Source: a virus. From it: DNA of 39,576 nt. Where the stretch lies: positions 1 to 39,576 of the IMG/VR virus record IMGVR_UViG_3300021960_000193; one strand, 5' to 3'. The notes beneath the pieces were generated by a model that saw only the letters and a list, made by a program, of their open reading frames with translations, was not told the DNA's origin and did no database searches. Positions 19,858 through 32,549 of the stretch are shown in pieces (position 1 is the first letter of the stretch; every line of letters starts with the position of its first letter). The translations under genes were made by a program, and so were the position numbers.

Positions 19858-19870
19858 CTTTGGGAGATGT

Positions 19871-19907
19871 GCTTACACTACTGCTACACTTTACACGTCC
19901 CCCCTTT
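19871..19907 (-). repeat. Repeated leader element, copy 1
   Basis: First of thirteen copies. The minus strand begins AAAGGGGGGACG and ends GTAGTGTAAGC. The right arm (GTGTAGC) no longer pairs with GGGAC, so the hairpin is degenerate here. It lies between the stop at 19915 and the start at 19857. Confidence 0.8.
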
Positions 19908-19914
19908 CAGTTAC

Positions 19915-20088
19915 TCACCACCTGTCAGGTCTACTTAAGTCCTCAACATATGCATCACAGTGTTCAGAACCCTCCAGGTTAAATAACTCCTTCCAGTCAA
20001 TCTGATGTGGGTCGAAGTCTGGAAATGCGCTAATGTCCAGAGTGATCCTATAACGCTGCTTCTGTGCTTGCTGATACGCAACTGACAT
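19915..20088 (-). CDS. Small hypothetical protein (57 aa)
   Basis: The ATG at 20088 has GGAG at 7-nt spacing and gives MSVAYQQAQKQRYRITLD. The protein continues with a Pro/Asp segment (ISAFPDFDPHQIDWKELF) and an acidic C-terminus. A longer in-frame start would cross the promoter and lacks a ribosome site. A strong sigma70 promoter lies about 30 nt upstream. Function unknown. Confidence 0.78.
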   Translation of the reverse strand: MSVAYQQAQKQRYRITLDISAFPDFDPHQIDWKELFNLEGSEHCDAYVEDLSRPDRW

Positions 20089-20116
20089 AAGTTCGCTCCG
20101 TGAGTGTACTGAAAGT

Positions 20117-20145
20117 ATTGTAAGATAGCAGAGTGAAACTGTCAA
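20117..20145 (-). promoter_or_regulatory. Sigma70-type promoter, with a late-like octamer just upstream
   Basis: The minus strand has TTGACA (20145-20140), a 17-nt spacer and TACAAT (20122-20117), with GGAG and the ATG at 20088 downstream. A T4-late-like CATAAATA lies at 20165-20158, so this gene may have both early- and late-type promoters; the late one is less certain. Confidence 0.75.
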
Positions 20146-20219
20146 TAAGACTGTGCATATTTATGAGAGGTGCTTATACTTTTTGAGGGTATTGTGAGGA
20201 TTTTGTAATGGCGGGGTGC

Positions 20220-20248
20220 TTGACATTTCTGCGGGTTGATGATAGAGT
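20220..20248 (+). promoter_or_regulatory. Promoter-like sequence on the opposite strand
   Basis: The plus strand has TTGACA (20220-20225), a 17-nt spacer and TAGAGT (20243-20248). It points toward the hairpin and terminator, against all genes. The -10 matches at only four of six positions. Confidence 0.4.
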
Positions 20249-20372
20249 GCGGGGTAAGATCACAAGACTCTGACACATTTAGAGAGACATAAATGAGGGG
20301 AATTGAGTACACTTATCAGAAGGTTTTAGAGGTGCTTAAATCTACCTTATTCTCAACAATAACCCCTATTGA

Positions 20373-20400
20373 TTCTCAATAAAACAACACTTATTGAGAA
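20373..20400. repeat. Perfect AT-rich inverted repeat
   Basis: TTCTCAATAA at 20373-20382 and TTATTGAGAA at 20391-20400 form a perfect 10-bp stem around an 8-nt loop. A partial third copy (TTCTCAACAATAA) precedes it at about 20350. It may be an operator or RNA structure. Confidence 0.75.
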
Positions 20401-20464
20401 CAGTATAACAAACTCATATACATTAATTAATACATTTTTAATTGATTTTAACCATAAAAACAAT

Positions 20465-20490
20465 AAAAAAGGGGGTAAAATGCCCCCTTT
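20465..20490 (-). terminator. Rho-independent terminator after the 54-aa membrane protein gene
   Basis: On the minus strand an 8-bp stem AAAGGGGG/CCCCCTTT with a 7-nt loop runs into six T residues. It lies 16 nt past the stop of the gene at 20506. Confidence 0.9.
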
Positions 20491-20505
20491 GTGGATTATA
20501 TTCAA

Positions 20506-20670
20506 TTAGCGTGATGTTCGTTGAATAAGATCACCAGTCAAGTGAAATGCTTCGCCAGTGTTGTAACGAACGCTAGGAAAAAGAAGGAAGGAAACAATGA
20601 AGATAATGCCAATGATTTTCACTTTCTTTGAGTTAATTGGTTTGAATGTGAGATACTTTCTTCTGGACAT
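20506..20670 (-). CDS. Small membrane protein (54 aa)
   Basis: A 54-residue protein begins MSRRKYLTFKPINSKKVK, followed by one hydrophobic segment (IIGIIFIVSFLLF, about residues 19-31) and a polar C-terminus. The positive N-terminus suggests an N-in orientation in the host membrane. It starts 4 nt after the stop of the 111-residue gene and is followed by a strong terminator, so it closes that unit. Confidence 0.8.
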   Translation of the reverse strand: MSRRKYLTFKPINSKKVKIIGIIFIVSFLLFPSVRYNTGEAFHLTGDLIQRTSR

Positions 20671-20674
20671 TTAA

Positions 20675-21010
20675 TCAAGCAAAGCGATAAGCACCATTCC
20701 ACATTGTGACTTCATTGTTGTCACGAACATACCAAACATGTTGCTTCTGAAAGATACCATCAGTCAGTGCATTACAGAACTCATTGATGAGAACATTCAA
20801 GCGAGATTTGGTAGTGTTCGATTCCCAACCTCCATCAAATACAGTCAGAGAAGTATCATCAACTTCAGCGATCAGATTATCATGAAGAAAGACAGAAGTT
20901 ACAACACATTTTTTATCATCATTGAAGAAGTTGATGATTTTAGTATTGTCAGACTTCCAATCAGTTTCAGACTTGATCGCTTCAATCATTTGGCGTTCGA
21001 TCTTACGCAT
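20675..21010 (-). CDS. Conserved cyanophage protein (111 aa), MRKIERQM family
   Basis: Begins MRKIERQMIEAIKSETDWKS and contains FDGGWESNTTKSRLNVL and FQKQHVWYV. These are hallmarks of a short protein family I recall in many cyanomyoviruses. The start follows an A-rich leader (ACTCAAAAAACTCAA) downstream of a repeated element rather than a Shine-Dalgarno site. Soluble, beta-rich by pattern. Function unknown. Confidence 0.88.
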   Translation of the reverse strand: MRKIERQMIEAIKSETDWKSDNTKIINFFNDDKKCVVTSVFLHDNLIAEVDDTSLTVFDGGWESNTTKSRLNVLINEFCNALTDGIFQKQHVWYVRDNNEVTMWNGAYRFA

Positions 21011-21034
21011 TTGAGTTTTTTGAGTGAGTGTTGT

Positions 21035-21071
21035 GCTTATGTAACTGGGACACTTTGAACGTCCCCCCTTT
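21035..21071 (-). repeat. Repeated leader element, copy 2
   Basis: Minus-strand AAAGGGGGGACGTTCAAAG, then TGTCCC and a CATAAGC tail. GGGAC and GTCCC can pair. It lies 8 nt after the stop at 21079 and 25 nt before the ATG at 21010. Confidence 0.88.
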
Positions 21072-21078
21072 GGATTAC

Positions 21079-21261
21079 TTAATGACGATCACTAATGTTC
21101 CAGGAAGTTGTGGGGGTATGTGATACAATACCAGCGCGAACTTTAGTGCGATAGTCTTGCTGTTCTTTCAACTGTTTCATATACTGTTGCATTGCAATTT
21201 GCACCGCAGGATCATTCTTTGCAGTGTCATTAAGTATAAACATATCAGTAGCGATTGTCAT
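21079..21261 (-). CDS. Small hypothetical protein (60 aa)
   Basis: The ATG at 21261 gives MTIATDMFILNDTAKNDPAV and a Gln/Lys-rich helix with MQQYMKQLKEQQDYRTK. It overlaps the preceding gene by 17 nt. A longer in-frame start at 21306 would overlap by 62 nt and is less likely. No strong ribosome site is seen for either. Function unknown. Confidence 0.68.
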   Translation of the reverse strand: MTIATDMFILNDTAKNDPAVQIAMQQYMKQLKEQQDYRTKVRAGIVSHTPTTSWNISDRH

Positions 21262-21433
21262 TGTTGAAAGGTGCATAAACTGCTTCAACTTCATCCCATT
21301 GAGCATCAGTCAGACTACCAACTTGTGCTTCCATGAAGTCATAAACCATACACCAATCTGCATCCATTTCATCAATGAATTGAGGGAGAGATTCGAGAGC
21401 AGAGTTAAAGATTTGCATTTGAGTGTCATTCAT
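21245..21433 (-). CDS. Small acidic protein (62 aa) starting inside the repeat
   Basis: The chosen ATG lies in the tail of repeat copy 3 and gives MNDTQMQIFNSALESLPQF. A start five codons later (MQIF) follows an ACTCAA leader like that of the 111-residue gene and is an alternative. An upstream in-frame start at 21484 would translate the whole repeat and is rejected. The protein is acidic, with several Trp and Tyr residues, and ends YAPFNNDNRY. Function unknown. Confidence 0.7.
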   Translation of the reverse strand: MNDTQMQIFNSALESLPQFIDEMDADWCMVYDFMEAQVGSLTDAQWDEVEAVYAPFNNDNRY

Positions 21434-21464
21434 ACTACTAGCACACTTTAAGCGTCCCCCCTTT
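21434..21464 (-). repeat. Repeated leader element, copy 3
   Basis: Minus-strand AAAGGGGGGACGCTTAAAG, then TGTGCTAGTAGT. The right arm has changed to GTGTGCT, so the stem has a mismatch. The next three bases are the ATG of the downstream gene. Confidence 0.88.
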
Positions 21465-21480
21465 GGATTAAGTAGTGAGA

Positions 21481-21720
21481 TCATTTAACATTCTCCATAA
21501 GATCGCTTAACACTTCCTCATCATAAAGATCTAGAATTTCTTCCTTAATTTCTTCCTCACTGCAAGATTGGTAGGAATCCATTAACAAATCATGTGCTAA
21601 TGTCATCAGGGTATCCATATCCATATCCTCGATAATTCGCTCACAATAATTATACTTAAACTGTGCAAGTTGTTCGTTGTTCATCATCTTTTGGTGAAGG
21701 TAATCTTTGATCAATGACAT
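21481..21720 (-). CDS. Conserved acidic protein (79 aa)
   Basis: The ATG at 21720 overlaps the stop of the upstream gene (TGATG) and gives MSLIKDYLHQKMMNNEQL. The core QFKYNYCERIIEDMDMDTLM and the acidic end (EEEIKEEILDLYDEEVLSDL) match a helical family I recall in cyanomyophages. A start at MMNNEQ (21687) is possible. Many acidic side chains suggest a protein-binding or DNA-mimic character, which is speculation. Confidence 0.8.
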   Translation of the reverse strand: MSLIKDYLHQKMMNNEQLAQFKYNYCERIIEDMDMDTLMTLAHDLLMDSYQSCSEEEIKEEILDLYDEEVLSDLMENVK

Positions 21721-21971
21721 CAGCAAGCGCAGGCAAGTCCAGAGTTAAAGAGTTGCGGTTCAGTGTGCATATCAGTCACAATGTAACCATAACCATCAAC
21801 CCTAGAATCTACCTCACGTTGGAAATCTTTCTTGTTAATGTAACGCTTGGATTGCTTACAGTTGGAGAAAGTAACGATCTTCAACATCAAACGATTGTGA
21901 ATAGTTCCATCCACAAACTTAACAGGATAGAAATCAACAATCATATTAGCATCTTTGGAGGTGAGTTGCAT
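21720..21971 (-). CDS. Small hypothetical protein (83 aa)
   Basis: Begins MQLTSKDANMIVDFYPVKF and ends HTEPQLFNSGLACAC, with two cysteines in its last three residues. Alternating beta pattern, no membrane segment. It starts 20 nt after repeat copy 4 and is coupled to the next gene by TGATG. Function unknown. Confidence 0.78.
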   Translation of the reverse strand: MQLTSKDANMIVDFYPVKFVDGTIHNRLMLKIVTFSNCKQSKRYINKKDFQREVDSRVDGYGYIVTDMHTEPQLFNSGLACAC

Positions 21972-21990
21972 TTAAGAGAATTGCGATTGT

Positions 21991-22027
21991 GCTTATACTA
22001 CAGGGACACTTTGCGCGTCCCCCCTTT
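21991..22027 (-). repeat. Repeated leader element, copy 4
   Basis: Minus-strand AAAGGGGGGACGCGCAAAG, then TGTCCCTGTAGTATAAGC. GGGACGC pairs with GTGTCCC (one G-T wobble) around a 5-nt loop. This is one of the most complete copies. Confidence 0.92.
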
Positions 22028-22028
22028 C

Positions 22029-22364
22029 TTAACGCATCAGAGCAAGTGCATCATCTTCAGAGAGACAATCTTCAGGCAGTTGGAGATTGCGAGCGCAAGA
22101 AACTGCATCGACAAAATTATCAAACTGTGCAAAGGTTTTCTGATTACCAACCCAGCAACCTTTGTACTCATAGATCATATACTCAACTGCAAAAACATCC
22201 AGTTTAGTGTTACGATCTACACTGTGCTTGATGTACACTTTACCGTCAGGACGAGTGTACTTGTCAAACACATTGGAGCGGAAAGTACGCTTAAAGTCAG
22301 TAGCAAACTCTGCGGTGAGATCAATGCTTTGAGCGAAGAGATTAGCGAAGTGAGTGTTGTTCAT
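22029..22364 (-). CDS. Hypothetical protein (111 aa) starting inside the repeat
   Basis: The only ATG near the start of this frame lies within repeat copy 5 and gives MNNTHFANLFAQSIDLTAEF. The core has KVYIKHSVDRNTKLDVFAVEY followed by a Trp-containing beta segment, and the C-terminus SEDDALALMR is acidic. Function unknown. The position of the start shows that the repeat can contribute coding sequence. Confidence 0.8.
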   Translation of the reverse strand: MNNTHFANLFAQSIDLTAEFATDFKRTFRSNVFDKYTRPDGKVYIKHSVDRNTKLDVFAVEYMIYEYKGCWVGNQKTFAQFDNFVDAVSCARNLQLPEDCLSEDDALALMR

Positions 22365-22395
22365 ACTACTAGGACACTTTAGGCGTCCCCCCTTT
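22362..22395 (-). repeat. Repeated leader element, copy 5
   Basis: Minus-strand AAAGGGGGGACGCCTAAAG, then TGTCCTAGTAGTATG. The ATG of the 111-residue gene is the end of the element. The preceding gene stops 8 nt upstream. Confidence 0.92.
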
Positions 22396-22402
22396 GAATC
22401 AG

Positions 22403-22543
22403 TTAGAACTTTGCATTGACTCCTATTACTTTTGCTTTCGGATTACGCGCAACTGCTGTATCCTTTGCATCCTGATAGTTTGCTGCTTGTACTTCTTCAG
22501 TGAAGACTTTTCCAGCAACGTATAACTTAACTTCGTATTTCAT
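22403..22543 (-). CDS. Conserved small protein (46 aa), MKYEVKLYVAGK family
   Basis: A 46-residue frame runs from MKYEVKLYVAGKVFTEEV to AKVIGVNAKF. It matches a very short beta-rich protein I recall in many cyanomyoviruses (MKYEVKLYV, an alanine-rich middle such as YQDAKDTAVARNP). The start overlaps the upstream stop (ATGA), showing translational coupling. Function unknown. Confidence 0.85.
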   Translation of the reverse strand: MKYEVKLYVAGKVFTEEVQAANYQDAKDTAVARNPKAKVIGVNAKF

Positions 22544-22704
22544 ACAGAGGGATTAACAGAGATTTCTTTGATGTTGAGTCCACAGAGTTGATTGTAGACA
22601 CGATTCAGTATAAGTTTGTCCGCAGTCTTTGCTTTGGATTTCTCATACCAAATGGTCACACATCCGTCGTTGGTTTCAACTTGAACGCGATAGTTTTTAG
22701 TCAT
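22540..22704 (-). CDS. Small hypothetical protein (54 aa)
   Basis: A 54-residue frame begins MTKNYRVQVETNDGCVTIWY and ends NIKEISVNPSV. It is linked by ATGA overlaps to the 20-residue membrane peptide upstream and to the 46-residue gene downstream, forming a coupled chain. Beta-strand pattern at the N-terminus, basic middle. Function unknown. Confidence 0.78.
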   Translation of the reverse strand: MTKNYRVQVETNDGCVTIWYEKSKAKTADKLILNRVYNQLCGLNIKEISVNPSV

Positions 22705-22763
22705 TTGTTAAGCGGAGTGAAGAACCAAAGAATAATTAAAGAACCAAGGATTAGAGTTGTCAT
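22701..22763 (-). CDS. Membrane micropeptide (20 aa)
   Basis: The frame encodes MTTLILGSLIILWFFTPLNK, almost entirely one hydrophobic helix. Its ATG overlaps the stop of the 83-residue gene (TGATG), GGAGG lies 10 nt upstream, and its stop overlaps the next ATG. The coupling and ribosome site argue that it is translated despite its size. It is either a tiny membrane peptide or a translational link. Confidence 0.62.
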   Translation of the reverse strand: MTTLILGSLIILWFFTPLNK

Positions 22764-23014
22764 CAGTAGTGTGCCTCCGAAGAATCAACCAGATCAGAAT
22801 ACTTTGCAATGCCATCATAGCACTTCTTTGCCATCAGATCATCACGCTCATCAACATATTGCTTGAGAAACTCGAAGCAATACTTGATACGCAACTCAGG
22901 TGCGATTGCAGCGAGTTGTTGTTGCTGACGCTTCTGATAGTTTGCGTTGTATGCAAACATTTCACGATCTTCGAGAGAGATGTTGTGAAACTTGCGTTCG
23001 GTAGTGTTGTTCAT
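22763..23014 (-). CDS. Helical hypothetical protein (83 aa) starting inside the repeat
   Basis: The ATG at 23014 lies in the tail of repeat copy 6 and gives MNNTTERKFHNISLEDREMF. A long in-frame extension through the repeat (to 23056) is rejected. The middle is Gln-rich (YQKRQQQQLAAIAPELRIKY) and the rest charged and helical. The same N-terminal MNNT occurs in the otherwise unrelated 111-residue protein at 22029. Function unknown. Confidence 0.78.
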   Translation of the reverse strand: MNNTTERKFHNISLEDREMFAYNANYQKRQQQQLAAIAPELRIKYCFEFLKQYVDERDDLMAKKCYDGIAKYSDLVDSSEAHY

Positions 23015-23045
23015 ATTACTAGGACACTTTAGGCGTCCCCCCTTT
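23012..23045 (-). repeat. Repeated leader element, copy 6
   Basis: Minus-strand AAAGGGGGGACGCCTAAAG, then TGTCCTAGTAATATG. Nearly identical to copy 5, with the start codon of the downstream gene at its end. Confidence 0.92.
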
Positions 23046-23048
23046 GCA

Positions 23049-23246
23049 TTAGTCAAGATCTTTGCGAAGATATTCTACAATTCTTGAGAGATCTTCGATT
23101 GCAGTGTTCATTGCAGATTTAGAATAACCAGTCGCAAAAGGATAGGTTTTTTCATAATCATCAGAGGTATTATCTACCGCATAGCATACATTCACTGCAT
23201 TGGTGAGACTATCAATCACTCGGATCAGTTTATCATCAATTTGCAT
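23049..23246 (-). CDS. Small hypothetical protein (65 aa)
   Basis: The ATG at 23246 has GGAGG at 6-nt spacing and gives MQIDDKLIRVIDSLTNAVNV. The ATG just before it (23249) overlaps the upstream stop and is a possible alternative. Helical and amphipathic, ending IVEYLRKDLD. Function unknown. Confidence 0.75.
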   Translation of the reverse strand: MQIDDKLIRVIDSLTNAVNVCYAVDNTSDDYEKTYPFATGYSKSAMNTAIEDLSRIVEYLRKDLD

Positions 23247-23248
23247 CA

Positions 23249-23437
23249 TCAACCTCCGAACATTTCATCAAAGAGAGGAGTTTCGTCAAATTGTTTCATT
23301 TCACGAAGTGCAACAAGGTGCTGAATGTGTGCGTTCATTGCATCAATTTCTCGCTGCAACTTTTCCTTCTTGAAGTTAATCTCCATGATGGAGCGGTTAA
23401 TCTCAACTCGGTCCATTTGTGCGTTAGTGTCATTCAT
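23249..23437 (-). CDS. Coiled-coil protein (62 aa) starting inside the repeat
   Basis: Starts in repeat copy 7 as MNDTNAQMDRVEINRSIMEI; MDRVEI (23416) is an alternative start. Residues 8-48 have a strong coiled-coil pattern (FKKEKLQREIDAMNAHIQHL). The C-terminus ETPLFDEMFGG is coupled to the next gene. Probably an oligomerising small protein; function unknown. Confidence 0.78.
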   Translation of the reverse strand: MNDTNAQMDRVEINRSIMEINFKKEKLQREIDAMNAHIQHLVALREMKQFDETPLFDEMFGG

Positions 23438-23468
23438 ACTACTAGCACACTTTAAGCGTCCCCCCTTT
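23435..23468 (-). repeat. Repeated leader element, copy 7
   Basis: Minus-strand AAAGGGGGGACGCTTAAAG, then TGTGCTAGTAGTATG. It matches copy 3 exactly over the core, including the mismatch in the right arm. The upstream stop codon touches its first base. Confidence 0.92.
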
Positions 23469-23557
23469 CAATCATCGTTGGTGAAGTGCATTAAAATATA
23501 ATTAACTCCCACACCGATGATAGAACCAAGAAGGAAATATAGAACGAAAGTTGTCAT
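23468..23557 (-). CDS. Membrane micropeptide (29 aa)
   Basis: The frame encodes one hydrophobic helix, MTTFVLYFLLGSIIGVGVNY, and a short polar tail ending FTNDD. The ATG overlaps the stop of the 67-residue gene (ATGA). Same style as the 20-residue peptide at 22701 (both begin MTT). Function unknown. Confidence 0.65.
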   Translation of the reverse strand: MTTFVLYFLLGSIIGVGVNYILMHFTNDD

Positions 23558-23757
23558 CCCCAAGCACTCATAAACTCATCAAGATGATACACATCATCTG
23601 TACTGGTTTCTTCAATCAACTCATCATAACTCATTTCTTTCAACATTTCCAGGTATTCTTCAGGAGTTGCATCATTTTCTGGATCGAAATCATCATGACA
23701 TAACCACACATATTCATTGTAAAGTGCGTCGATTAGTTGTTCTTTTGATACAGTCAT
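23554..23757 (-). CDS. Conserved acidic protein (67 aa)
   Basis: Begins MTVSKEQLIDALYNEYVWLC and continues HDDFDPENDATPEEYLEMLK, a pattern I recall in cyanomyovirus small proteins. Strongly acidic and helical. It overlaps both neighbours by ATGA junctions, in a four-gene coupled chain (23927 to 23468). Function unknown. Confidence 0.82.
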   Translation of the reverse strand: MTVSKEQLIDALYNEYVWLCHDDFDPENDATPEEYLEMLKEMSYDELIEETSTDDVYHLDEFMSAWG

Positions 23758-23927
23758 TTTGCTTCCATTTTGTATTCGTACTTTTCTACCATTCTATCAC
23801 ATCCTTGACACCCTAATGCACTCCAACTGAAATGATAAACTCTTTTAATTTCACCACAATGAGGACATTGAAGTAGTCTACCATTGTTTCCAGTTCTTGA
23901 GGTTTTCTTGACAGGAATGAAGTTCAT
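23754..23927 (-). CDS. Zinc-ribbon-like small protein (57 aa)
   Basis: The ATG at 23927 gives MNFIPVKKTSRTGNNGRLLQ, then two CxxC pairs, CPHC and CQGC, separated by 17 residues (GEIKRVYHF...ALG). This is a compact zinc-ribbon layout seen in conserved cyanophage proteins. A longer in-frame start at 23966 would overlap the 122-residue gene. Probably nucleic-acid or protein binding; no target is evident. Confidence 0.82.
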   Translation of the reverse strand: MNFIPVKKTSRTGNNGRLLQCPHCGEIKRVYHFSWSALGCQGCDRMVEKYEYKMEAK

Positions 23928-23935
23928 TGTATCAA

Positions 23936-24304
23936 TCAACGAGCGTAAAGATAGGAACCTGCCCAATCACAACGCTCAAACATTTGCTCACGAGATTCAA
24001 TAATCAACACATTGTAACGCTCACCTTTAGCAGGTGCTTTTACACTGGCAGGTTTATACACAGAACCAGTCTTCTTATCAATGAAAGCGTGAATACTGTC
24101 ACGACGATCATCAATATGCATGAAGACTTTGTGATACTTACGACCCGAAGAATCAAGGGAGTAGAAGTAACCATCAGGAGCAGTCTGCTGGAGAGCATCA
24201 CACAGCATCAGACCATACTTAACAATGTTAAGTTCAATCGTGTTGCGGGCATCTTGCTGGGCAGCGTAGTCAGCGAAAGTTGTAGTCATTTCAGTTGTGC
24301 TCAT
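23936..24304 (-). CDS. Conserved hypothetical protein (122 aa)
   Basis: Two starts are possible: ATG at 24304, inside repeat copy 8 (MSTTEMTTTFADYAAQQ), or ATG at 24289 (MTTTFADY). The core has YGLMLCDALQQTAPDGYFY, RKYHKVFMHIDDRRDSIHAF and YKPASVKAPAKGERYN, a compact alpha/beta pattern I recall in a protein family shared by several cyanophages. A C-terminal Trp-Ala-Gly-Ser-Tyr-Leu-Tyr motif closes it. Function unknown. Confidence 0.82.
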   Translation of the reverse strand: MSTTEMTTTFADYAAQQDARNTIELNIVKYGLMLCDALQQTAPDGYFYSLDSSGRKYHKVFMHIDDRRDSIHAFIDKKTGSVYKPASVKAPAKGERYNVLIIESREQMFERCDWAGSYLYAR

Positions 24305-24335
24305 ACTATAAGGACACTTTGCACGTCCCCCCTTT
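24299..24335 (-). repeat. Repeated leader element, copy 8
   Basis: Minus-strand AAAGGGGGGACGTGCAAAG, then TGTCCTTATAGTATGAGC. GGGAC pairs with GTCCT with one wobble. It lies 3 nt after the upstream stop. Confidence 0.92.
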
Positions 24336-24338
24336 CAA

Positions 24339-25235: not shown

Positions 25236-25245
25236 TGCGTTTCAG

Positions 25246-25281
25246 TCTATACTATAGGGACACTTTATGCGTCCCCCCTTT
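25246..25281 (-). repeat. Repeated leader element, copy 9
   Basis: Minus-strand AAAGGGGGGACGCATAAAG, then TGTCCCTATAGTATAGAC. The hairpin is complete. The ATG of the ligase-like gene follows 10 nt later, after GAAACGCA-type sequence and without a Shine-Dalgarno site. Confidence 0.92.
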
Positions 25282-25284
25282 GTG

Positions 25285-25524
25285 TTAGAGAGGAAGTTTA
25301 GCGACAGATTTACCTTTGCGATGCTTCTCAATAAAGTTAATCGCAGATTGACGATTGCGACACTCTTTGATACATCTACCCTGATGAATGATTGCTAATT
25401 GTGTATCGCTCCCAATAATAGGCACAGCAGCATAACACAATGGGTCTTCATATTTGCCAACCATAAACCCTTGCTCTACAGGTTTAGGATCAAGAATGTC
25501 GCTCTTTTGTTGTATTAGTTTCAT
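25285..25524 (-). CDS. Small hypothetical protein (79 aa)
   Basis: Begins MKLIQQKSDILDPKPVEQGF and has a beta-alpha pattern with the basic end KHRKGKSVAKLPL. Its ATG overlaps the helicase stop (ATGA), so it is translated with the helicase and might be a partner; that is inference. No known domain recognised. Confidence 0.8.
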   Translation of the reverse strand: MKLIQQKSDILDPKPVEQGFMVGKYEDPLCYAAVPIIGSDTQLAIIHQGRCIKECRNRQSAINFIEKHRKGKSVAKLPL

Positions 25525-26732: not shown

Positions 26733-26746
26733 CAAAGAATAATAAT

Positions 26747-26776
26747 AGCACCCTTACAGACGATTGTAAAGGGTGC
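26747..26776 (-). promoter_or_regulatory. Hairpin in the helicase leader
   Basis: On the minus strand GCACCCTTTACA and TGTAAGGGTGC pair over 11 bp with a one-base bulge and a 6-nt loop. It is followed by ATTATTATTCTTTG and the helicase start. It may be an attenuator or terminator between repeat copy 10 and the gene. Confidence 0.7.
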
Positions 26777-26783
26777 TGACGAC

Positions 26784-26819
26784 GCTTATACTATAAAGAC
26801 ACTTTGCGCGTCCCCCCTT
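26784..26819 (-). repeat. Repeated leader element, copy 10
   Basis: Minus strand: AAGGGGGGACGCGCAAAG, then TGTCTTTATAGTATAAGC. Its first base touches the methyltransferase stop codon (TGA). Unlike other copies it is followed by a second, larger hairpin. Confidence 0.88.
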
Positions 26820-27772
26820 CAAGTCATCGCAGCAATGAGAGGACTTGTGGTTTCTTGTATTGATTTCTCAAATAACATTTTACCATCGTTGTTAATATCA
26901 AATAAAATGTAATTTCTATTTGTAGCAATAGCACTTCTGCCTACAGTTCCAGACCCAGCACAAGGATCTAAAACAATAGAGTTTTGATTACTGAACATAT
27001 TAACAATTCTATTGAGAAGTGCAACAGGTTTCTGTGTTGCATAATCCATCTTCTCAACTCCTTGGATCTGTTTTATATCAGACCATACATCTTTAACAGG
27101 GATTCCATCCATCTCATCCAGAAACTTCTTCACTCTAGGAATACCTGTGATTGGTGAATACTCAAGGCGATTGTCATCATGAAGCATCTGCATCCTCTCT
27201 TTTGAGATATGCCATTGGAGATCATTTCCATTCCATTCATATCTCAAATTGGGGCGAGATACAACATTAGGTTGACGATTAACCAATGCAGATGTGTTGT
27301 ATTTCATATTGCGAATGGGACACATCTTTGCCTTCTTCACAGTATCATCATCGTATGCTTTGTGTTCAGAATTGTAGATAGATTCTGCACCTTTCTGATA
27401 AACAATGATCGTATCGTGATTGCGTTGGAGTTGCTTTTTTGACTTGTGGTTGCCTCCAGAGATCCAAACAATCTCATTCTTAAATCTTTTCTCACCAAAG
27501 ATATCATCAAGAACAATACGAATATGATGAGAAATCTTTGGTTCTACATGCACAACAATGTTGCCACAATCGGTGAGAACGCGATGACATTCTTCCAGCA
27601 AAGGACGCATCAACAATTCGCGATAATCCGCACTGGAAGTAAATCTATCATCAAAGTGATAGAAATCTCTTCCAGTGCAATAAGGTGGATCAATATAAAT
27701 TAGATCCACCGTGTTTGCATCAACTTGCTTCAGCAGTTCTCTACTGTCACCGATAGTGTATTCATTTAGCAT
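26819..27772 (-). CDS. Beta-class DNA adenine-N6 (or cytosine-N4) methyltransferase (317 aa)
   Basis: Motif IV DPPY (residues 28-31, IYIDPPYCTGRDFYHF) precedes motif I LDPCAGSGTVG (about 268-278), which is the beta-class order. Between them lies a large target-recognition region with EIVWISGGNHKSKKQL and a TQKPVALLNRIV helix before motif I. The ATG at 27772 overlaps the preceding nuclease-like gene by 11 nt. An in-frame TTG at 27784 is less likely. The pair suggests a modification enzyme tied to a cleavage activity. Target site not readable. Confidence 0.92.
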   Translation of the reverse strand: MLNEYTIGDSRELLKQVDANTVDLIYIDPPYCTGRDFYHFDDRFTSSADYRELLMRPLLEECHRVLTDCGNIVVHVEPKISHHIRIVLDDIFGEKRFKNEIVWISGGNHKSKKQLQRNHDTIIVYQKGAESIYNSEHKAYDDDTVKKAKMCPIRNMKYNTSALVNRQPNVVSRPNLRYEWNGNDLQWHISKERMQMLHDDNRLEYSPITGIPRVKKFLDEMDGIPVKDVWSDIKQIQGVEKMDYATQKPVALLNRIVNMFSNQNSIVLDPCAGSGTVGRSAIATNRNYILFDINNDGKMLFEKSIQETTSPLIAAMT

Positions 27773-28295
27773 TGTTGAGAGCAATCAGAACCTCCTTTGC
27801 GCGACCAGCATACTTTTTGCGGACAGATGCAGGGACAGAACCTACACAATATCCAGGCATATTCTTGTCTTCCAGTTCATAACTAGGAACAGCAAGAAAC
27901 TCCCAGTCAGAAATATCTTCGTGACCTTTAGGAATAATAAACAGTATAACATCAAATGAGTCTACTGCATAGCGAACCTGACCATTCTTTGCACCATTGT
28001 TTGCATTTTTGCCAGTGGTGCGGCGAGTCTGCTCCATGTGCAAAGTATTGCCACCGCGATACTTAACTTGGATACGCAGACCGTTAGAAGAAAGGCGGTC
28101 ATATTTCTCCTGCTGACCATCAAGGTCGTCAGGAGACTTGTCGTTTTCAATACCACATTCATCGCGCAACCATTGCGGGGCGATAATGCGTTCGGTTGGA
28201 AATGCAAGAAACTTGCCAATCTCTCGCGTGTCGCCTTCAGTGATGAGTTCTTCAAAACCGAGAGCAACGATTTCGGAAAGTGTAGTAACTCCCAT
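27762..28295 (-). CDS. Candidate PD-(D/E)XK nuclease, restriction-endonuclease-like (177 aa)
   Basis: A 177-residue protein with an N-terminal helical part, then KYDRLSSNGLRIQVKYRGGN (D66 and Q76-x-K78), a QTRRTTGKN segment and a hydrophobic strand SFDVILFIIP. This is the order expected for a PD-(D/E)XK core in which Gln replaces the usual Glu. The start has an excellent site, AAGGAGATCACTG before ATG. It overlaps the methyltransferase gene by 11 nt, as many restriction-modification pairs do. The assignment is from pattern only and needs structural confirmation. Confidence 0.55.
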   Translation of the reverse strand: MGVTTLSEIVALGFEELITEGDTREIGKFLAFPTERIIAPQWLRDECGIENDKSPDDLDGQQEKYDRLSSNGLRIQVKYRGGNTLHMEQTRRTTGKNANNGAKNGQVRYAVDSFDVILFIIPKGHEDISDWEFLAVPSYELEDKNMPGYCVGSVPASVRKKYAGRAKEVLIALNNAK

Positions 28296-28318
28296 CAGTG
28301 ATCTCCTTGTGTTTGTAT

Positions 28319-28352
28319 CTATTAGAGGGACATTTTAAGCGTCCCCCCCTTT
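28319..28352 (-). repeat. Repeated leader element, copy 11
   Basis: Minus-strand AAAGGGGGGGACGCTTAAA, then ATGTCCCTCTAATAGAT. It has seven G residues and the tail has lost the TATAAGC motif. It lies 5 nt after the upstream stop, and the downstream start has its own Shine-Dalgarno site. Confidence 0.85.
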
Positions 28353-28357
28353 GTTTG

Positions 28358-29533
28358 TCAAATTATTTCTTCTTCAGTATCAAATGCCATTTCAAATGGT
28401 TCATCTTCATCTTCAAGTTGATTCATGCACCAGATTTCCATATTCAAGTCACTCAACTTCTTGCGATAACCATCAAGAATAGATGGTTGAATTACTTGAC
28501 CAATAGGTGCAAGAATGTTGTCTCTCCTTATCTGCCAAGAATCGTTAAGTCTTTTTTTGAATTTGATTCTAGACTCAACAATTTTCTTTGCATTGGTTGA
28601 GTTGTCTTTATTCCAGAGAAGAACTTTCACAGTCTTTGGTGGAGTTGGTGGCAGAACTTCTTCAAGAGGTGTTTTCTCTTTTGGATTTTCTCTCTCACAA
28701 ACTACTCTCAAAAGTCTGTCTGCATAAGTATAGCAATATCCATCATGATCCCTGATCGGCACAACAAAATAGTAGTTGTTGTCATCCTCAACGTTGTGAG
28801 GTTTCCAATCATCAGATTCTGCGATGAAATTATCAAGATCTTCTTCGTTGTTGTTGATAGTTAATTGACCAACAACTTGTTCAGGATCCCGAAGAGAATC
28901 AAGAATCTTCGTCACAATTCTCTCAACAACTGCGGTGTTTTCATTATAACGAGTATAGCAACCCATGTGCTTCAAAAGATTCCTGACAAAAGATCTTGTG
29001 ATGAGATCAAAGTCTTCATGCCTATCTTTTTCTACTTCAATAATATTGACACACGCAGTTTCAAACTGATAGTCTTTCGTATCTTCAACGATAGGACCAT
29101 AAACATTTCCCCACATCGCTGCCATTGTTAGAATGGAATGATCTAGGAAAGAATTATAAATCCCACCATTAGAAGGAAAAACTCTTTTATATTTTGCAGA
29201 AGGAACTTCTTCAATCACTGGATTCTCACGACAAACTTTAAGTGTGTGCCGTCGATCAAATACTTCCTTCCAATCACCAATGGGCATAAAAGGTATGGGC
29301 CAAGATGTACGATCCCACCCGTAGAAGAGAGAACCTTTGAGTCCTACAATCTTCTGGGAAACTGTATCTTTGGTGCCGCGAACTGTATTATCCCCAACAC
29401 GGAGTTCGCTTACCTTACTCATTTCCAAATTATCTAATTCAAGAAATGGAAAGTTAATGTAAATATCGTCTTCTGAATTGACGACAAGATCTTCGATGGA
29501 GAAGTTGCTTCCCCAAGTTAATTTTTTTGCCAT
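28358..29533 (-). CDS. Uncharacterised 391-aa protein, possible ParB/sulfiredoxin-like segment
   Basis: Begins MAKKLTWGSNFSIEDLVVNS after a good site (GAGGTAATT) and a consensus promoter. Residues about 65-115 contain LFYGWDRTSWPIPFMPIGDW and EVFDRRHTLKVCRENP, which faintly recall the PI...GRHR core of ParB-like domains. The middle has a helical segment and the C-terminus is basic then very acidic (EDEDEPFEMAFDTEEEII). I do not recognise the family with confidence. Its neighbours are the nuclease/methyltransferase pair and the internal-head-protein candidate. Confidence 0.78.
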   Translation of the reverse strand: MAKKLTWGSNFSIEDLVVNSEDDIYINFPFLELDNLEMSKVSELRVGDNTVRGTKDTVSQKIVGLKGSLFYGWDRTSWPIPFMPIGDWKEVFDRRHTLKVCRENPVIEEVPSAKYKRVFPSNGGIYNSFLDHSILTMAAMWGNVYGPIVEDTKDYQFETACVNIIEVEKDRHEDFDLITRSFVRNLLKHMGCYTRYNENTAVVERIVTKILDSLRDPEQVVGQLTINNNEEDLDNFIAESDDWKPHNVEDDNNYYFVVPIRDHDGYCYTYADRLLRVVCERENPKEKTPLEEVLPPTPPKTVKVLLWNKDNSTNAKKIVESRIKFKKRLNDSWQIRRDNILAPIGQVIQPSILDGYRKKLSDLNMEIWCMNQLEDEDEPFEMAFDTEEEII

Positions 29534-29582
29534 AATTACCTCGTAATAAAGAAACCTTGACTATGCAGGTCTCATGCATTAT

Positions 29583-29611
29583 ATAGTATCACATTATTTC
29601 AAACTTGTCAA
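29583..29611 (-). promoter_or_regulatory. Sigma70-type promoter for the 391-aa gene
   Basis: The minus strand has TTGACA (29611-29606), 17 nt and TACTAT (29588-29583). The -35 box starts immediately after the TAG stop of the basic-protein gene. The leader to the ATG at 29533 is about 45 nt. Confidence 0.78.
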
Positions 29612-30139
29612 CTATTTGGAGGTGAACTTGTGCTTCAGTTCTTTCTCCGACTTCTTACCAGTTGATTGAAGAACCAAATCACGCAGAACTCTCTCACCTT
29701 TCTTATACAATGCTTTGCGCTCTTTGGTAGTCTTACCAGATGCTTTTTGTGGTTTATACTTTGGCGAAACTTCAGTCTTTTTCTTCTTCGCAAGCAGTTC
29801 AGATGCAGACTTTGTTTTCTCTCCTGCTTCTCTTCTCTTGCGCTCCAAGTATGCTTTGCGTTGTGCTTCTTTTGCACTCAATGCAGCAGATCCTCTTTCC
29901 TTTTCAGGTTGCTGAACTCTGGTCTCTGTCTTACGTTGAGTGCCAATATCTTTGCGTGGTTTGTATTCCTTTGCGGGTTCCATCTTACCACCGCCTGCTG
30001 CTTTCATTCTGCGGCGTTCTGGTGCTGTTTTCTTACGTTCTGCACCAATTCTTCCACCTTCACCAGTACGACGGATTTGTGATGATCCCATCACGTCCTT
30101 GTCGTATGCTTCGGCAATAAATTGTGAGAAGGTTTTCAT
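29612..30139 (-). CDS. Basic protein with T4-type capsid-targeting N-terminus (175 aa)
   Basis: The first 11 residues, MKTFSQFIAEA, match the capsid-targeting peptide of T4 internal proteins (MKTYQEFIAEA) at 8 of 11 positions. The I-A-E tripeptide of the gp21 prohead-protease cleavage site is kept, predicting a cut after Glu10. The rest is rich in Lys, Arg and Ala (RKAYLERKRREAGEKTKS), suited to DNA binding inside a head. It has its own promoter behind a strong hairpin. Likely role: an internal head protein packaged with the DNA and possibly injected. Internal proteins are not retained in sequence between phages, so the rest cannot be matched. Confidence 0.72.
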   Translation of the reverse strand: MKTFSQFIAEAYDKDVMGSSQIRRTGEGGRIGAERKKTAPERRRMKAAGGGKMEPAKEYKPRKDIGTQRKTETRVQQPEKERGSAALSAKEAQRKAYLERKRREAGEKTKSASELLAKKKKTEVSPKYKPQKASGKTTKERKALYKKGERVLRDLVLQSTGKKSEKELKHKFTSK

Positions 30140-30159
30140 TTGATTGCTTAACTATTCCT

Positions 30160-30188
30160 ATAGTATATTTAGATATGGGAAAAGTCAA
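30160..30188 (-). promoter_or_regulatory. Sigma70-type promoter for the internal-protein candidate
   Basis: The minus strand has TTGACT (30188-30183), 17 nt and TACTAT (30165-30160). It follows the hairpin at 30191-30218 by 2 nt, so terminator and promoter form a compact joint. The ATG at 30139 is about 20 nt downstream. Confidence 0.75.
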
Positions 30189-30190
30189 TA

Positions 30191-30218
30191 GGGGACAACC
30201 AGTTTCCTGACTGTCCCC
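30191..30218 (-). terminator. 12-bp hairpin with GAAA tetraloop between transcription units
   Basis: On the minus strand GGGGACAGTCAG and CTGGTTGTCCCC form a 12-bp stem (two G-T wobbles) around GAAA. It follows the stop of the 68-residue gene. The tract after it is TATTGACTTTT rather than a clean T-run, so termination strength is uncertain. Confidence 0.7.
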
Positions 30219-30225
30219 ATTCTTA

Positions 30226-30432
30226 TCAATCTTCTTCTTTTAGTTTATCCATTGCAGACTTACTTACTTTACACACCAAGTCGTTGTCATAGAAATACTT
30301 AACACGTTCGCGGCGAGCAACAATAAGCATGTCATATTCTTCCTGTTGTTCTTTAGTGAAGCGGAAGTCTTGACGCCTCCAAGCATCACGAAGTTCTTTC
30401 AAGTGAGGCAGAACGTTCACAGTGTCAGTCAT
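30226..30432 (-). CDS. Conserved charged protein (68 aa)
   Basis: Begins MTDTVNVLPHLKELRDAWRR and is highly charged and helical, ending VSKSAMDKLKEED. Its ATG overlaps the stop of the acidic 43-residue gene (TGATG). It is the last gene before the hairpin at 30191. Function unknown. Confidence 0.8.
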   Translation of the reverse strand: MTDTVNVLPHLKELRDAWRRQDFRFTKEQQEEYDMLIVARRERVKYFYDNDLVCKVSKSAMDKLKEED

Positions 30433-30563
30433 CAGAAGTCCCAGTTAGAGTTAAGAAATGCTTCAAAGGTTTTGTTGTCATCTTCTTCAAAGAGTTCATC
30501 CTCTTCAATGAAGTCAAAGTTCACAAGTTCTTCAACTTGTTGTTCATCAAGGAAAGCGTTCAT
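30432..30563 (-). CDS. Very acidic small protein (43 aa)
   Basis: A 43-residue frame, MNAFLDEQQVEELVNFDF then IEEDELFEEDDNKTFEAF, starts 10 nt after repeat copy 12 and is coupled by TGATG to the next gene. About one third of its residues are Asp or Glu. Such peptides can be DNA mimics or inhibitors, but that is only a possibility. Confidence 0.72.
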   Translation of the reverse strand: MNAFLDEQQVEELVNFDFIEEDELFEEDDNKTFEAFLNSNWDF

Positions 30564-30572
30564 AAGTTCGGT

Positions 30573-30610
30573 GCTTACATAATTGGAACAGTTTAGGCGT
30601 CCCCCCTTTT
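30573..30610 (-). repeat. Repeated leader element, copy 12
   Basis: Minus-strand AAAGGGGGGACGCCTAAAC, then TGTTCCAATTATGTAAGC. The arms are more diverged (GTTCC), leaving a weaker stem. It overlaps the upstream stop by two bases. Confidence 0.85.
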
Positions 30611-30752
30611 AATTAACAAGGATTTGAATGTCTTTACATCCCTGTTCTCGTATTACTTTCTCCCAAAAGATTGCATCATCAATCTTGAGAAATGTCGCTG
30701 TTTGAGTTGAGAATCCTTTCTTTTTCGGTTTTTGGTATTTCACTTGGTACAT
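30609..30752 (-). CDS. Conserved small basic protein (47 aa), overlapping frame
   Basis: A 47-residue frame begins MYQVKYQKPKKKGFSTQTAT and ends CKDIQILVN, with AIFWEKVIREQG in the middle. It resembles short proteins of the form M.VKY..PKK.G.ST that I recall in cyanophages. It overlaps the C-terminal coding part of the membrane-protein gene by 74 nt in another frame, unusually long even for this phage. Confidence 0.72.
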   Translation of the reverse strand: MYQVKYQKPKKKGFSTQTATFLKIDDAIFWEKVIREQGCKDIQILVN

Positions 30753-30921
30753 CATTCCAATGCCTAATTACTCCTGCAACAATGAAACAGTTAGTGATAA
30801 GGTAAGTAGCAAATATAGTAGTCCGTATAAGAGCAATATTGTCTGATTCTTTGTCACATTTTGATGCCTTCTCTCCTAGTGCTTTTGCCCACCATCTCCA
30901 TGCATTTTTCCTCTTCTTCAT
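30679..30921 (-). CDS. Small membrane protein (80 aa)
   Basis: Begins MKKRKNAWRWWAKALGEKAS, a strongly basic N-terminus, followed by one hydrophobic segment (IRTTIFATYLITNCFIVAGVI, without its first residue 20 long) and a polar tail. It resembles a conserved cyanomyovirus membrane protein. It overlaps the gene upstream by 68 nt and the one downstream by 74 nt. Function unknown; probably in the host inner membrane. Confidence 0.8.
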   Translation of the reverse strand: MKKRKNAWRWWAKALGEKASKCDKESDNIALIRTTIFATYLITNCFIVAGVIRHWNDVPSEIPKTEKERILNSNSDISQD

Positions 30922-31147
30922 ACATTGTCTGTCTTGATCTTACATATTTAAGTTCTTTCCACTGTTCACGATAACATACAACCAAAAGTCTATCATTACT
31001 GTGAAATGGAGTATGACCAATGTCATCACGATGTCTTGGCATGACTAGCATTTCAATCGTGACATAATCATTGTCTTTGAAATACACCCATCCCTTAACA
31101 TCATGTTTCCAAATTACATAATCATTGACCTCTGGTTCGTAACTCAT
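30854..31147 (-). CDS. Conserved hypothetical protein (97 aa)
   Basis: Begins MSYEPEVNDYVIWKHDVKGW and continues with VYFKDNDYVTIEMLVMPR, a beta-rich pattern I recall in cyanomyovirus proteins (DYVIW...GWVYFK). The C-terminus is charged. It overlaps the next upstream gene by ATGA. Function unknown. Confidence 0.82.
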   Translation of the reverse strand: MSYEPEVNDYVIWKHDVKGWVYFKDNDYVTIEMLVMPRHRDDIGHTPFHSNDRLLVVCYREQWKELKYVRSRQTMYEEEEKCMEMVGKSTRREGIKM

Positions 31148-31425
31148 ATAAATGCTGCTTCTAATGGATTTAGGTTTAGTTGCATAGCAGAATACGGAGT
31201 TGTATTCTTTATATCTACCTGATCACCTTGTTTGGTGGCATTGATAGGCGCATAATAGCATTGCTTTTTTGTGTCGTAGAATCCCCAGATTGTGCGAGTA
31301 GGTACACCATTGTTGTAGTCAAAACGAATACTACAACGTAACCATATTGCGACAATATTCCTCTTAAACTCTTCAAACTCATAGTGATAATTTTGTGGAG
31401 ATTCATGAGGAAAGTTTTCAATCAT
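31144..31425 (-). CDS. Conserved hypothetical protein (93 aa)
   Basis: Begins MIENFPHESPQNYHYEFEEF, followed by KRNIVAIWLRCSIRF and IWGFYDTKKQCYYAPINA. These features match a small cyanophage family as I recall it. Compact beta-sheet pattern. It overlaps both neighbours by ATGA. Function unknown. Confidence 0.84.
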   Translation of the reverse strand: MIENFPHESPQNYHYEFEEFKRNIVAIWLRCSIRFDYNNGVPTRTIWGFYDTKKQCYYAPINATKQGDQVDIKNTTPYSAMQLNLNPLEAAFI

Positions 31426-31661
31426 GTGGTAAATGCTTCAATAACTTGAGAATCCAGATCTTCTGCTAATTGATACGCACGAGAATTGAGAATGTTCTCT
31501 TTCAGATCTGTATAGTGTTGTTCATAGAAATTACCATTATCTTCACTGGTAATTAGATCAAAACATTCATCATCGTCTTCAGCAATTACATTCCAAATAC
31601 CGCCATATTCTGACTGTGGAAAGGGAACATAGTGTTCAACAATGTAGAGATACTTTGCCAT
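31422..31661 (-). CDS. Conserved hypothetical protein (79 aa)
   Basis: Begins MAKYLYIVEHYVPFPQSEYG and continues GIWNVIAEDDDECFDLITSE, a recognised cyanophage small-protein pattern. Acidic, alpha/beta. It is the first gene after an extended -10 promoter at 31685-31690 and is coupled to the next by ATGA. Function unknown. Confidence 0.84.
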   Translation of the reverse strand: MAKYLYIVEHYVPFPQSEYGGIWNVIAEDDDECFDLITSEDNGNFYEQHYTDLKENILNSRAYQLAEDLDSQVIEAFTT

Positions 31662-31684
31662 TTTCGTGTGTAAATTACATACTA

Positions 31685-31690
31685 ATTATA
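31685..31690 (-). promoter_or_regulatory. Extended -10 promoter
   Basis: Minus-strand TGATATAAT contains a perfect TATAAT (31690-31685) with the TG extension. The -35 position has only a weak TTGCGG at 17-nt spacing. The TGA of this motif is the stop of the gene at 31691. The leader to the ATG at 31661 is about 17 nt. Confidence 0.6.
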
Positions 31691-31834
31691 TCAGGAACAG
31701 TAAAACTCCGCAAGATAATAATCAACTGTGATCTCAAGTTTTGCTGCTTCCTCTTCAACCTCTTTCCAAAACTCTTCTGCTACTTTGTCCATTTCTGCTT
31801 TTTTAATCATTTCTTGGATACGTTTGGAGATCAT
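31691..31834 (-). CDS. Helical small protein (47 aa)
   Basis: A 47-residue frame begins MISKRIQEMIKKAEMDKVAE and continues as a charged, heptad-like helix (EEFWKEVEEEAAKLEI), ending LAEFYCS. Its ATG overlaps the stop of the membrane peptide upstream (ATGA). Function unknown. Confidence 0.74.
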   Translation of the reverse strand: MISKRIQEMIKKAEMDKVAEEFWKEVEEEAAKLEITVDYYLAEFYCS

Positions 31835-31944
31835 TTGAAAGTTGCCTCGTCTTTGGGTCTGATTACCTTAAAATAGTATATCAGAAGACTGGTGATTGTT
31901 GCAACCAGTGAGAGAAAGAGAGCGATTGCTAATGAAATAGTCAT
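31831..31944 (-). CDS. Small membrane protein (37 aa)
   Basis: MTISLAIALFLSLVATITSL begins one long hydrophobic helix with a short basic tail (YYFKVIRPKDEATFK). ATGA overlaps on both sides tie it to a five-gene chain from 32503 to 31691. Function unknown. Confidence 0.74.
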   Translation of the reverse strand: MTISLAIALFLSLVATITSLLIYYFKVIRPKDEATFK

Positions 31945-32102
31945 CGTATTTCTTTACTTGGTGGTTGCATCAGTCTATGAATTGCTTGCTCGTGTGCATC
32001 AAACATCTTTTGATCACGTTGAATTAGAAATACATTCCAACCAAGAATGACAGCAAACCCAATCATTCCTGCGAGAATATATTTGCGGTTGGTGTTAGTC
32101 AT
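31941..32102 (-). CDS. Small membrane protein (53 aa)
   Basis: Starts MTNTNRKYILAGMIGFAVIL, one hydrophobic helix after a short basic N-terminus, then a polar helix (QKMFDAHEQAIHRLM). Coupled by ATGA to the 134-residue gene upstream and to the 37-residue peptide downstream. Function unknown. Confidence 0.76.
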   Translation of the reverse strand: MTNTNRKYILAGMIGFAVILGWNVFLIQRDQKMFDAHEQAIHRLMQPPSKEIR

Positions 32103-32503
32103 GCTGCAAGTGCTCCAGAGGGGATTTCAACGATTTCGGGGCGTTTGTTGTCCTCAAACTCGTTCATATTGTAGCACACCCATTCACCATTGCGGAAGAT
32201 GTAGGAGTATTCTTCGCCAAAAGCAAGAAACACTTTCAGGTTCTTGTCAATACGAGGAGGGCAATCATCACCACGTTGAGAATAATACAGCGGACCTTGT
32301 GCAACAGTTTCATTATTGAAACCAGCATTAGTCCAAGCAGAACTCATATCACCACCGTCAATAAGTTCAGCAGCAAGTTCTTTGCTGTTGTAATGAGTCT
32401 TCAGGATGCGACCCAACCAAGAAGGATATCCATCCCAATGGTGATAAACAGACAGAATAGATTCATCTGCAAGTTGAATACCAATGCGGGAGCGAGTTGC
32501 CAT
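32099..32503 (-). CDS. Conserved phage protein (134 aa), MATRSRIGIQ family
   Basis: Begins MATRSRIGIQLADESILSVY and continues HHWDGYPSWLGRILKTHYNS, which matches a protein found widely in cyanophages and other phages (MATRSRIGI...S.Y.H.DGYP...G..L...Y). A mid-part ELIDGGDMSSAW and a Tyr-rich end follow. Likely a small enzyme or binding fold, but unassigned. It starts 10 nt after repeat copy 13, without a Shine-Dalgarno site. Confidence 0.88.
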   Translation of the reverse strand: MATRSRIGIQLADESILSVYHHWDGYPSWLGRILKTHYNSKELAAELIDGGDMSSAWTNAGFNNETVAQGPLYYSQRGDDCPPRIDKNLKVFLAFGEEYSYIFRNGEWVCYNMNEFEDNKRPEIVEIPSGALAA

Positions 32504-32513
32504 TGCGTTTGTT

Positions 32514-32549
32514 GCTTACACTACAGGGACACTTTGCGCGTCCCCCCTT
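32514..32549 (-). repeat. Repeated leader element, copy 13
   Basis: Minus strand: AAGGGGGGACGCGCAAAG, then TGTCCCTGTAGTGTAAGC. The stem is intact. The element begins inside the halogenase stop codon and is the last copy toward high coordinates. Confidence 0.92.

Follow-up and report, generated by a model that had tools for sequence, protein, structure and literature searches.

An interchangeable box on a constant intergenic element of T4-like cyanomyoviruses, a probable promoter class of the small-gene zone

IMG/VR virus record IMGVR_UViG_3300021960_000193 (39,576 bases, hereafter the window) carries thirteen copies of an intergenic element which was followed here into related phages. The element is apparently undescribed, real and widespread, and one of its halves is unusually allelic: copies share one orientation and one genomic zone, and consist of a near-constant core and a box that is uniform within a genome but switches among discrete alleles between genomes. 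This genome-specific tag, swapped wholesale among relatives and invisible from a single window, is its most informative property. Comparative sequence evidence suggests that the element is probably a promoter class for the small-gene zone, read by a phage-specific factor. A literature search covering open-licence PMC papers returned no description of it.

Judged from its genes, the window is a T4-like cyanomyovirus: gp6, gp25 and further baseplate genes matched Kyanoviridae, S-SM2 and Bellamy being the closest. A search with AAAGGGGGGACG allowing up to two mismatches gave 13 matches, each of them on the minus strand (10 exact, three differing at one base), against a chance expectation of 0.79; none of 100 shuffles of the window reached 13, and no 14th match was found across all 39,576 bases. 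The number of copies, their single orientation and their absence outside the zone, all put forward by a first-pass annotation of the window, were thus confirmed; the positions under which that annotation had placed them are the low-coordinate (3') ends of minus-strand copies. Since the genes of the small-gene zone share the minus strand, the element is in sense orientation. Aligned copies follow the pattern AAAGGGGGGACG-NNN-AAAGTGTCC-nnn-TAGTATAAGCAC, numbered 1-39, and the window consensus in this numbering is A1AAGGGGGGACG12-NNN-A16AAGTGTCC24-nnn-T28AGTATAAGCAC39. Copies had been placed between a stop codon and the next start. They do lie directly 3' of a stop codon and ahead of the next start codon, but in five of the 13 (those beginning at 21464, 22395, 23045, 23468 and 24335) the start codon falls within the tail (TAGTATG), and the element is therefore not simply ahead of the start.

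Analysis of the element among relatives was based on loci fetched through the adjacent phrog_455 gene or through the motif of the window, and more than 600 distinct copies were found in these cyanomyovirus loci. Positions 16-39 read AAAGTGTCC-YWR-TAGTRTRAGCAC and are near-constant; positions 16-24 and 28-35 are nearly invariant, position 11 is C in 95% of copies, position 27 is a purine in 95%, and positions 4-10 are variable. Over 78 contigs and 568 copies, identity in the box (4-12) was 96.5% within a contig versus 43.7% between contigs, the corresponding values for the core (16-24) being 91.0% and 85.1%. In a second, partly overlapping sample, whose contigs were taken by the core only, with the box unused, box identity was 94.2% within and 46.3% between contigs, and copies lay on one strand in 79 of 80 contigs. 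About ten discrete box alleles were distinguished. The first sample contained TTACTCACC, ACTGAAGCC/ACTGTAGCT, ACTGGGCCC, GGGGGGACG/TCG (that of the window), CAGGGAGCC, CTTGGATCC and TGAGGGCCC, and the second added others such as TTAGGATCG and TCTGGGGCC. Seventy-five of the 78 contigs were uniform in allele; the three mixed ones (L029, L041 and L069) possibly reflect recent imports of genes with foreign boxes.

At least 22 allele changes were counted on the phrog_455 protein tree (minimum 6; mean with shuffled labels 44.5). The window and its relative L010 carry GGGGGGACG, and L011 and L012, nested beside both, carry ACTGGGCCC. Pairwise comparison revealed in-place replacement at one junction shared by L069 and L078, where the genes on either side share 90-91% identity and the core does not differ at all, but only 4 of 9 box positions match. 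Uniformity within genomes, at least 22 switches and in-place replacement together bear the signature of a co-evolving recognition factor. A guide RNA was considered and rejected: in S-SM2 the box had neither an additional nor a complementary copy, and the single near match in SynMITS9220M01, in sense orientation, was chance-like.

The stem of the hairpin that the first-pass annotation had made part of the element, with an arm pairing with GGGAC, was not kept across alleles. In several copies of the window (e.g. 19907, 21464 and 23468) and in most related phages the GGGAC/GTCCC arms do not pair, so that the hairpin is not a defining feature. Half of the copies in the allele group to which the window belongs had the full stem, against 0-22% of those in other groups and none with TTACTCACC; 5' alleles such as TTACTCACC and ACTGAAGCC are unable to pair with the constant AAAGTGTCC. 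Folding energies of representative copies were within the range of shuffled sequences. No Rfam match was obtained at gathering scores for the window and seven loci, and a relaxed threshold gave a single match at chance level.

Two complete genomes bear the element, and in both it is confined to one zone of 14-16 kb before gp25-gp6-gp7. S-SM2 has 12 copies at 42.7-58.5 kb of its 190.8-kb genome, all on one strand, and none elsewhere; SynMITS9220M01 has 12 at 36.3-50.0 kb, also on one strand, plus a low-scoring match at 77.4 kb. Marine virus AG-345-O18 is a third named phage with the element. It was not found in the searched zones of Bellamy, P-SSM2, S-SKS1, S-CAM7, S-CREM1, ACG-2014f, S-SRM01, S-SCSM1 and Syn9. 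In IMG/VR, the constant core by itself was matched in at least 119 stretches. A host origin was rejected, as a slightly shortened core had no exact match in the searched genomes of 84,980 species of bacteria and archaea. The broader proposal of the first-pass annotation, that of a repeated non-coding, regulatory-type element of cyanomyoviruses splitting one zone into mini-operons, thus stood, the element being present in many relatives.

The position of start codons relative to the element was informative about where RNA would begin. Of 285 copies with an ATG at positions 32-34 (ATG32), 274 had a frame that stayed open for 35 codons or more, and the frame was equally long for only 41% of GTA and 34% of ATA triplets at these positions; in the second sample the value was 97% for ATG versus 44% and 20% for GTA and ATA. 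No other in-frame ATG occurred within 30 nucleotides (nt) in 126 of the 274 copies. By these frame counts ATG32 is a true start codon, and about 45% of copies have it inside the tail. Starts are bimodal, at position 32 or at 46-53 with very few in between, as would be expected if a single start site gave leaderless mRNAs in some cases and leadered ones in others. Some copies are followed not by a near gene start but by structured RNA or by starts past position 100. One type of structured RNA has its closing stem from position 30 (L115, L127 and L163); in the other, the closing stem of the RNAalifold consensus begins at position 32 in most copies, and TAGTAT is lost in most copies of this type. 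With ATG32 as the real start, RNA has to begin no later than about position 30, and the closing stems likewise need RNA from position 30 onward. TAGTRT/TAGTAT as an essential -10, which would place the RNA start at about 40, could not be reconciled with ATG32 or with structured leaders lacking the motif, and was rejected. YAAAGT (15-20) is possible as a -10-like sequence, albeit a weak one.

Comparison with relatives lacking the element pointed to transcription. Upstream of phrog_455, the helicase gene and other genes, S-SM2 and SynMITS9220M01 carry the element, whereas the same orthologues in ACG-2014f, P-SSM2, S-CAM7 and S-SRM01 are preceded by the palindrome GNCASTT-N4-AASTGGCAC or a relative of it. 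In these four phages TATAMT lies mostly 29-31 nt downstream of the palindrome (at 30 or 31 nt in 20 of 24 palindromes of ACG-2014f; where found, at 29-33 nt in S-SRM01, P-SSM2 and S-CAM7). This rigid spacing is a promoter geometry at the DNA level, and palindrome plus TATAMT is apparently an activator-type promoter class of many cyanomyoviruses. It was seen in the early zones of L172 (ACG-2014f), L166, L165 and L170, sometimes with a terminator hairpin between. When intergenic gaps of 30 nt or more were compared, TATAMT was present in 22 of 32 in ACG-2014f, a phage without the element; S-SM2 has TATAMT in 2 of 22 and the element in 8, and SynMITS9220M01 TATAMT in 1 of 21 and the element in 9. 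The element and sigma70 -10 boxes are thus distributed in a complementary manner, and replacement of the relatives' promoters at the same sites led us to infer a promoter, with a start near the purine at position 27. No TATAMT was found at positions 36-76 in 200 class-2 copies, and it was rare in gaps that hold the element; within the window only the helicase copy has a sigma70-like promoter. In the same zone of S-SKS1 (L167), another repeated intergenic motif was observed, CTAAGTAACACTTA followed by CTAACTAACACTTT.

From these patterns we infer promoter function, a start site, the existence of a factor and a reason for switching. In one large group of T4-like cyanophages, these promoters would serve the zone of small genes that lies ahead of gp25-gp6-gp7. 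The box (about 4-12) would be the allele-specific recognition site of a phage-encoded factor, and AAAGTGTCC (16-24) a constant core contacted by the transcription machinery, which would be the host RNA polymerase, possibly acting via YAAAGT. RNA would start at about 27-30, and transcripts would be nearly leaderless (ATG32), carry a leader of 15-25 nt or begin with a structured RNA. A genome would keep one box allele because only promoters matching its own factor would work, and in a lineage gaining another allele the boxes would be replaced in place. A further step, possible but doubtful, is an allelic promoter code: each genome would place a single 9-bp address, out of about ten that are interchangeable, on every promoter of its small-gene zone. 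A phage factor matching that address would read it, so that a phage expresses its own genes but not a co-infecting relative's, and lineages would re-address repeatedly, like recognition systems under diversifying selection.

Several observations weigh against a promoter. There is no recognisable -35, the -10-like YAAAGT is weak, and the conserved GTCC just ahead of the proposed start does not resemble host promoters. The TAGTRT of the tail looks like a -10 with a start at about 40, at odds with ATG32, and the helicase copy of the window has a separate sigma70-like promoter downstream. ATG32, structured leaders and bimodal starts would also fit RNA cleavage at 27-30. Screens of gene content and of allele correlation gave no convincing candidate for the factor, and PF00940 (T7-like polymerase) had no match in four genomes, nor did its positive control. 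A Lys/Pro/Gln-rich protein family (29612-30139 of the window, minus strand) occurs in 78 fetched element-bearing loci and is absent from Bellamy, ACG-2014f, Syn9 and P-SSM2; it was rejected as the reader, being probably disordered and without correlation to alleles (p = 0.09). Other families from the allele screen were small, the statistics ignored phylogeny, and none was convincing.

The main rival is RNA processing, which would produce an identical boundary: an endoribonuclease of phage or host would cut one or a few long transcripts at about 27-30 of each copy, with the box as an allele-specific site. Copies lying between cistrons directly after a stop codon, the boundary shared by ATG32 and structured leaders, and the scarcity of other promoters in the zone would all suit it. 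Relatives, however, carry promoters and not processing sites at the equivalent places, the conserved part has no common RNA structure, and we know of no RNase with about ten interchangeable 9-nt recognition sequences; processing is thus considered unlikely. It is also conceivable that the element acts within the mRNA as a translation-control leader, binding a translational regulator or substituting for the Shine-Dalgarno sequence. Cyanomyoviruses have RegA, which in T4 acts at early-gene start sites, about 45% of copies hold the start codon inside the tail, and pairing of the allele found in the window, AAAGGGGGG, with the 16S anti-Shine-Dalgarno is feasible with one G-U pair. Yet most alleles (TTACTCACC, ACTGAAGCC and CTTGGATCC) have no Shine-Dalgarno match, some copies precede long non-coding structured RNA or starts past position 100, and RegA is conserved but the box is not, which makes this explanation quite improbable.

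An operator bound by a repressor or another DNA-binding protein specific to the phage, not itself a promoter and comparable to the stoperators of mycobacteriophage L5, would agree with the genome-specific, one-orientation, intergenic nature of the element and with the resemblance of AAAGTGTCC to the right half of the relatives' palindrome. We regard it as very improbable given the fixed relation to RNA start and start codon and the few other promoters of the zone to be regulated. Least credible, indeed barely so, is the cassette of early sigma70 promoter and stem-loop terminator, acting as a recombination site, after the promoter-early stem-loops (PeSLs) reportedly described by Arbiol in 2010 and Comeau in 2014 in the T4-like phages RB49 and phi1. 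The element does sit in a mosaic small-gene zone, and broken adjacency was slightly commoner at element junctions (72% versus 62% at plain ones, a set that includes spurious open reading frames). But the stem is missing in most alleles, there is neither a -35/-10 pair nor a U-run, and the comparison of alleles contradicts it. The PeSL likeness drawn by the first-pass annotation consequently does not extend to membership, as 12 of the 13 copies have neither a sigma70 -35/-10 pair nor a terminator. Both are small intergenic regulatory cassettes in a variable small-gene region of T4-like phages, but the element has no sigma70 promoter and no terminator stem-loop, and its box is allelic; the PeSL papers are cited in PMC4503421.

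Table 1. Copies of the element in the window and structured RNAs of related loci.
Feature	Location	Strand	Remarks
Copy 1	19869..19907	-	box GGGGGGACG; next start codon at element position 51
Copy 2	21033..21071	-	next gene a Kyano_Gp96 homologue, start 21010
Copy 3	21426..21464	-	ATG at element position 32 (21433)
Copy 4	21989..22027	-	next start 21971
Copy 5	22357..22395	-	ATG at element position 32 (22364)
Copy 6	23007..23045	-	ATG at element position 32 (23014)
Copy 7	23430..23468	-	ATG at element position 32 (23437)
Copy 8	24297..24335	-	ATG at element position 32 (24304); DUF7717 gene
Copy 9	25243..25281	-	start 25235 (position 47); phrog_455/DUF6267 gene
Copy 10	26782..26820	-	followed by hairpin with sigma70-like promoter, then helicase gene
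Copy 11	28313..28351	-	AAGGGGGGGACG; next start 28295
Copy 12	30571..30609	-	next start 30563 (position 47)
Copy 13	32512..32550	-	TAAGGGGGGACG; overlaps end of tryptophan halogenase gene; next start 32503
Structured RNA 1	L163 23824-24020; L092, L113-L117, L140, L152; P-SSM2 (L166 near 13100)		
Structured RNA 2	L115 6182; L127 2847; L163 31480; L166 near 13280; L152	minus in L127	

Structured RNA 1 is conserved and about 130-190 nt long, with closing stem GUGAGGGA/UCCCUCAC and core GGTTCAGGTGTAAGCGATTCCC...GGGTAAATTTGGGC; covariation was seen in the closing stem, and there was no Rfam match. Structured RNA 2 is small (GAGTTAGTACC...GTGAAGCACCTCTTGACC), occupies the same place downstream of the element and was once found inserted inside structured RNA 1 (nested in L152). 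Upstream of the helicase gene, the window (about 26740-26790, minus strand) has a 12-13 bp hairpin with the sigma70-like promoter TTTACA-N17-TATTAT, and S-SM2 has TTGACA-N17-TATACT at the equivalent site. A 391-amino-acid protein (28358-29533, minus strand) had no PHROG match; its only resemblance, to a poxvirus late transcription factor domain, was below threshold (E 0.041).

T4 middle promoters, composed of a MotA box and a -10, share with the element an upstream phage-specific box in place of a -35; they differ in that the element has no TATAAT and its box is allelic. The T4 late promoter TATAAATA was absent from all copies and from the minus strand of the window. The palindrome-plus-TATAMT promoters of ACG-2014f, P-SSM2, S-CAM7 and S-SRM01 occupy the same zone and precede the same orthologues, and their right half AASTGKC resembles AAAGTGTCC, but they are palindromic, have a sigma70 -10 at a fixed 30 nt and, as far as seen, are not allelic. 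Closest in layout are the start-associated sequences (SAS/ESAS) of cluster K mycobacteriophages (PMC3203893), which are repeats in a single orientation immediately before start codons; the inverted-repeat consensus of ESAS varies by subcluster and its function is unknown (PMC3203893). SAS has AGGAG at the ribosome-binding site, pairing with 16S rRNA (PMC3203893), whereas most alleles of the element lack AGGAG, and the variable part of the element, unlike SAS/ESAS, switches among discrete alleles between close relatives. That repeated intergenic elements can be promoters is illustrated by halovirus HF2, in which all nine intergenic repeats tested had promoter activity (PMC8707807); these belong to an archaeal virus, however, with AT-rich promoter motifs in two classes per genome, genus-conserved and not allelic.

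Cyanomyoviruses have no motA or asiA, and the mechanism of their early and middle transcription was called unknown in a review of T4-like cyanophages (PMC2984593). A comparative study of 2010 that included S-SM2 predicted promoters by BPROM, TATAAAT, Pho and NtcA models only (PMC3037559). With the element, hundreds of gene starts, some of them in two cultured phages whose genomes are complete, share a defined sequence class; it makes a clear prediction (a start at 27-30) and offers a genetic handle (a box swap). It is unusual for about a dozen dispersed sites to switch in concert among a few alleles, and this points to a phage recognition protein yet to be discovered; a swapped tag on a constant element suggests a virus-specific switch for early genes.

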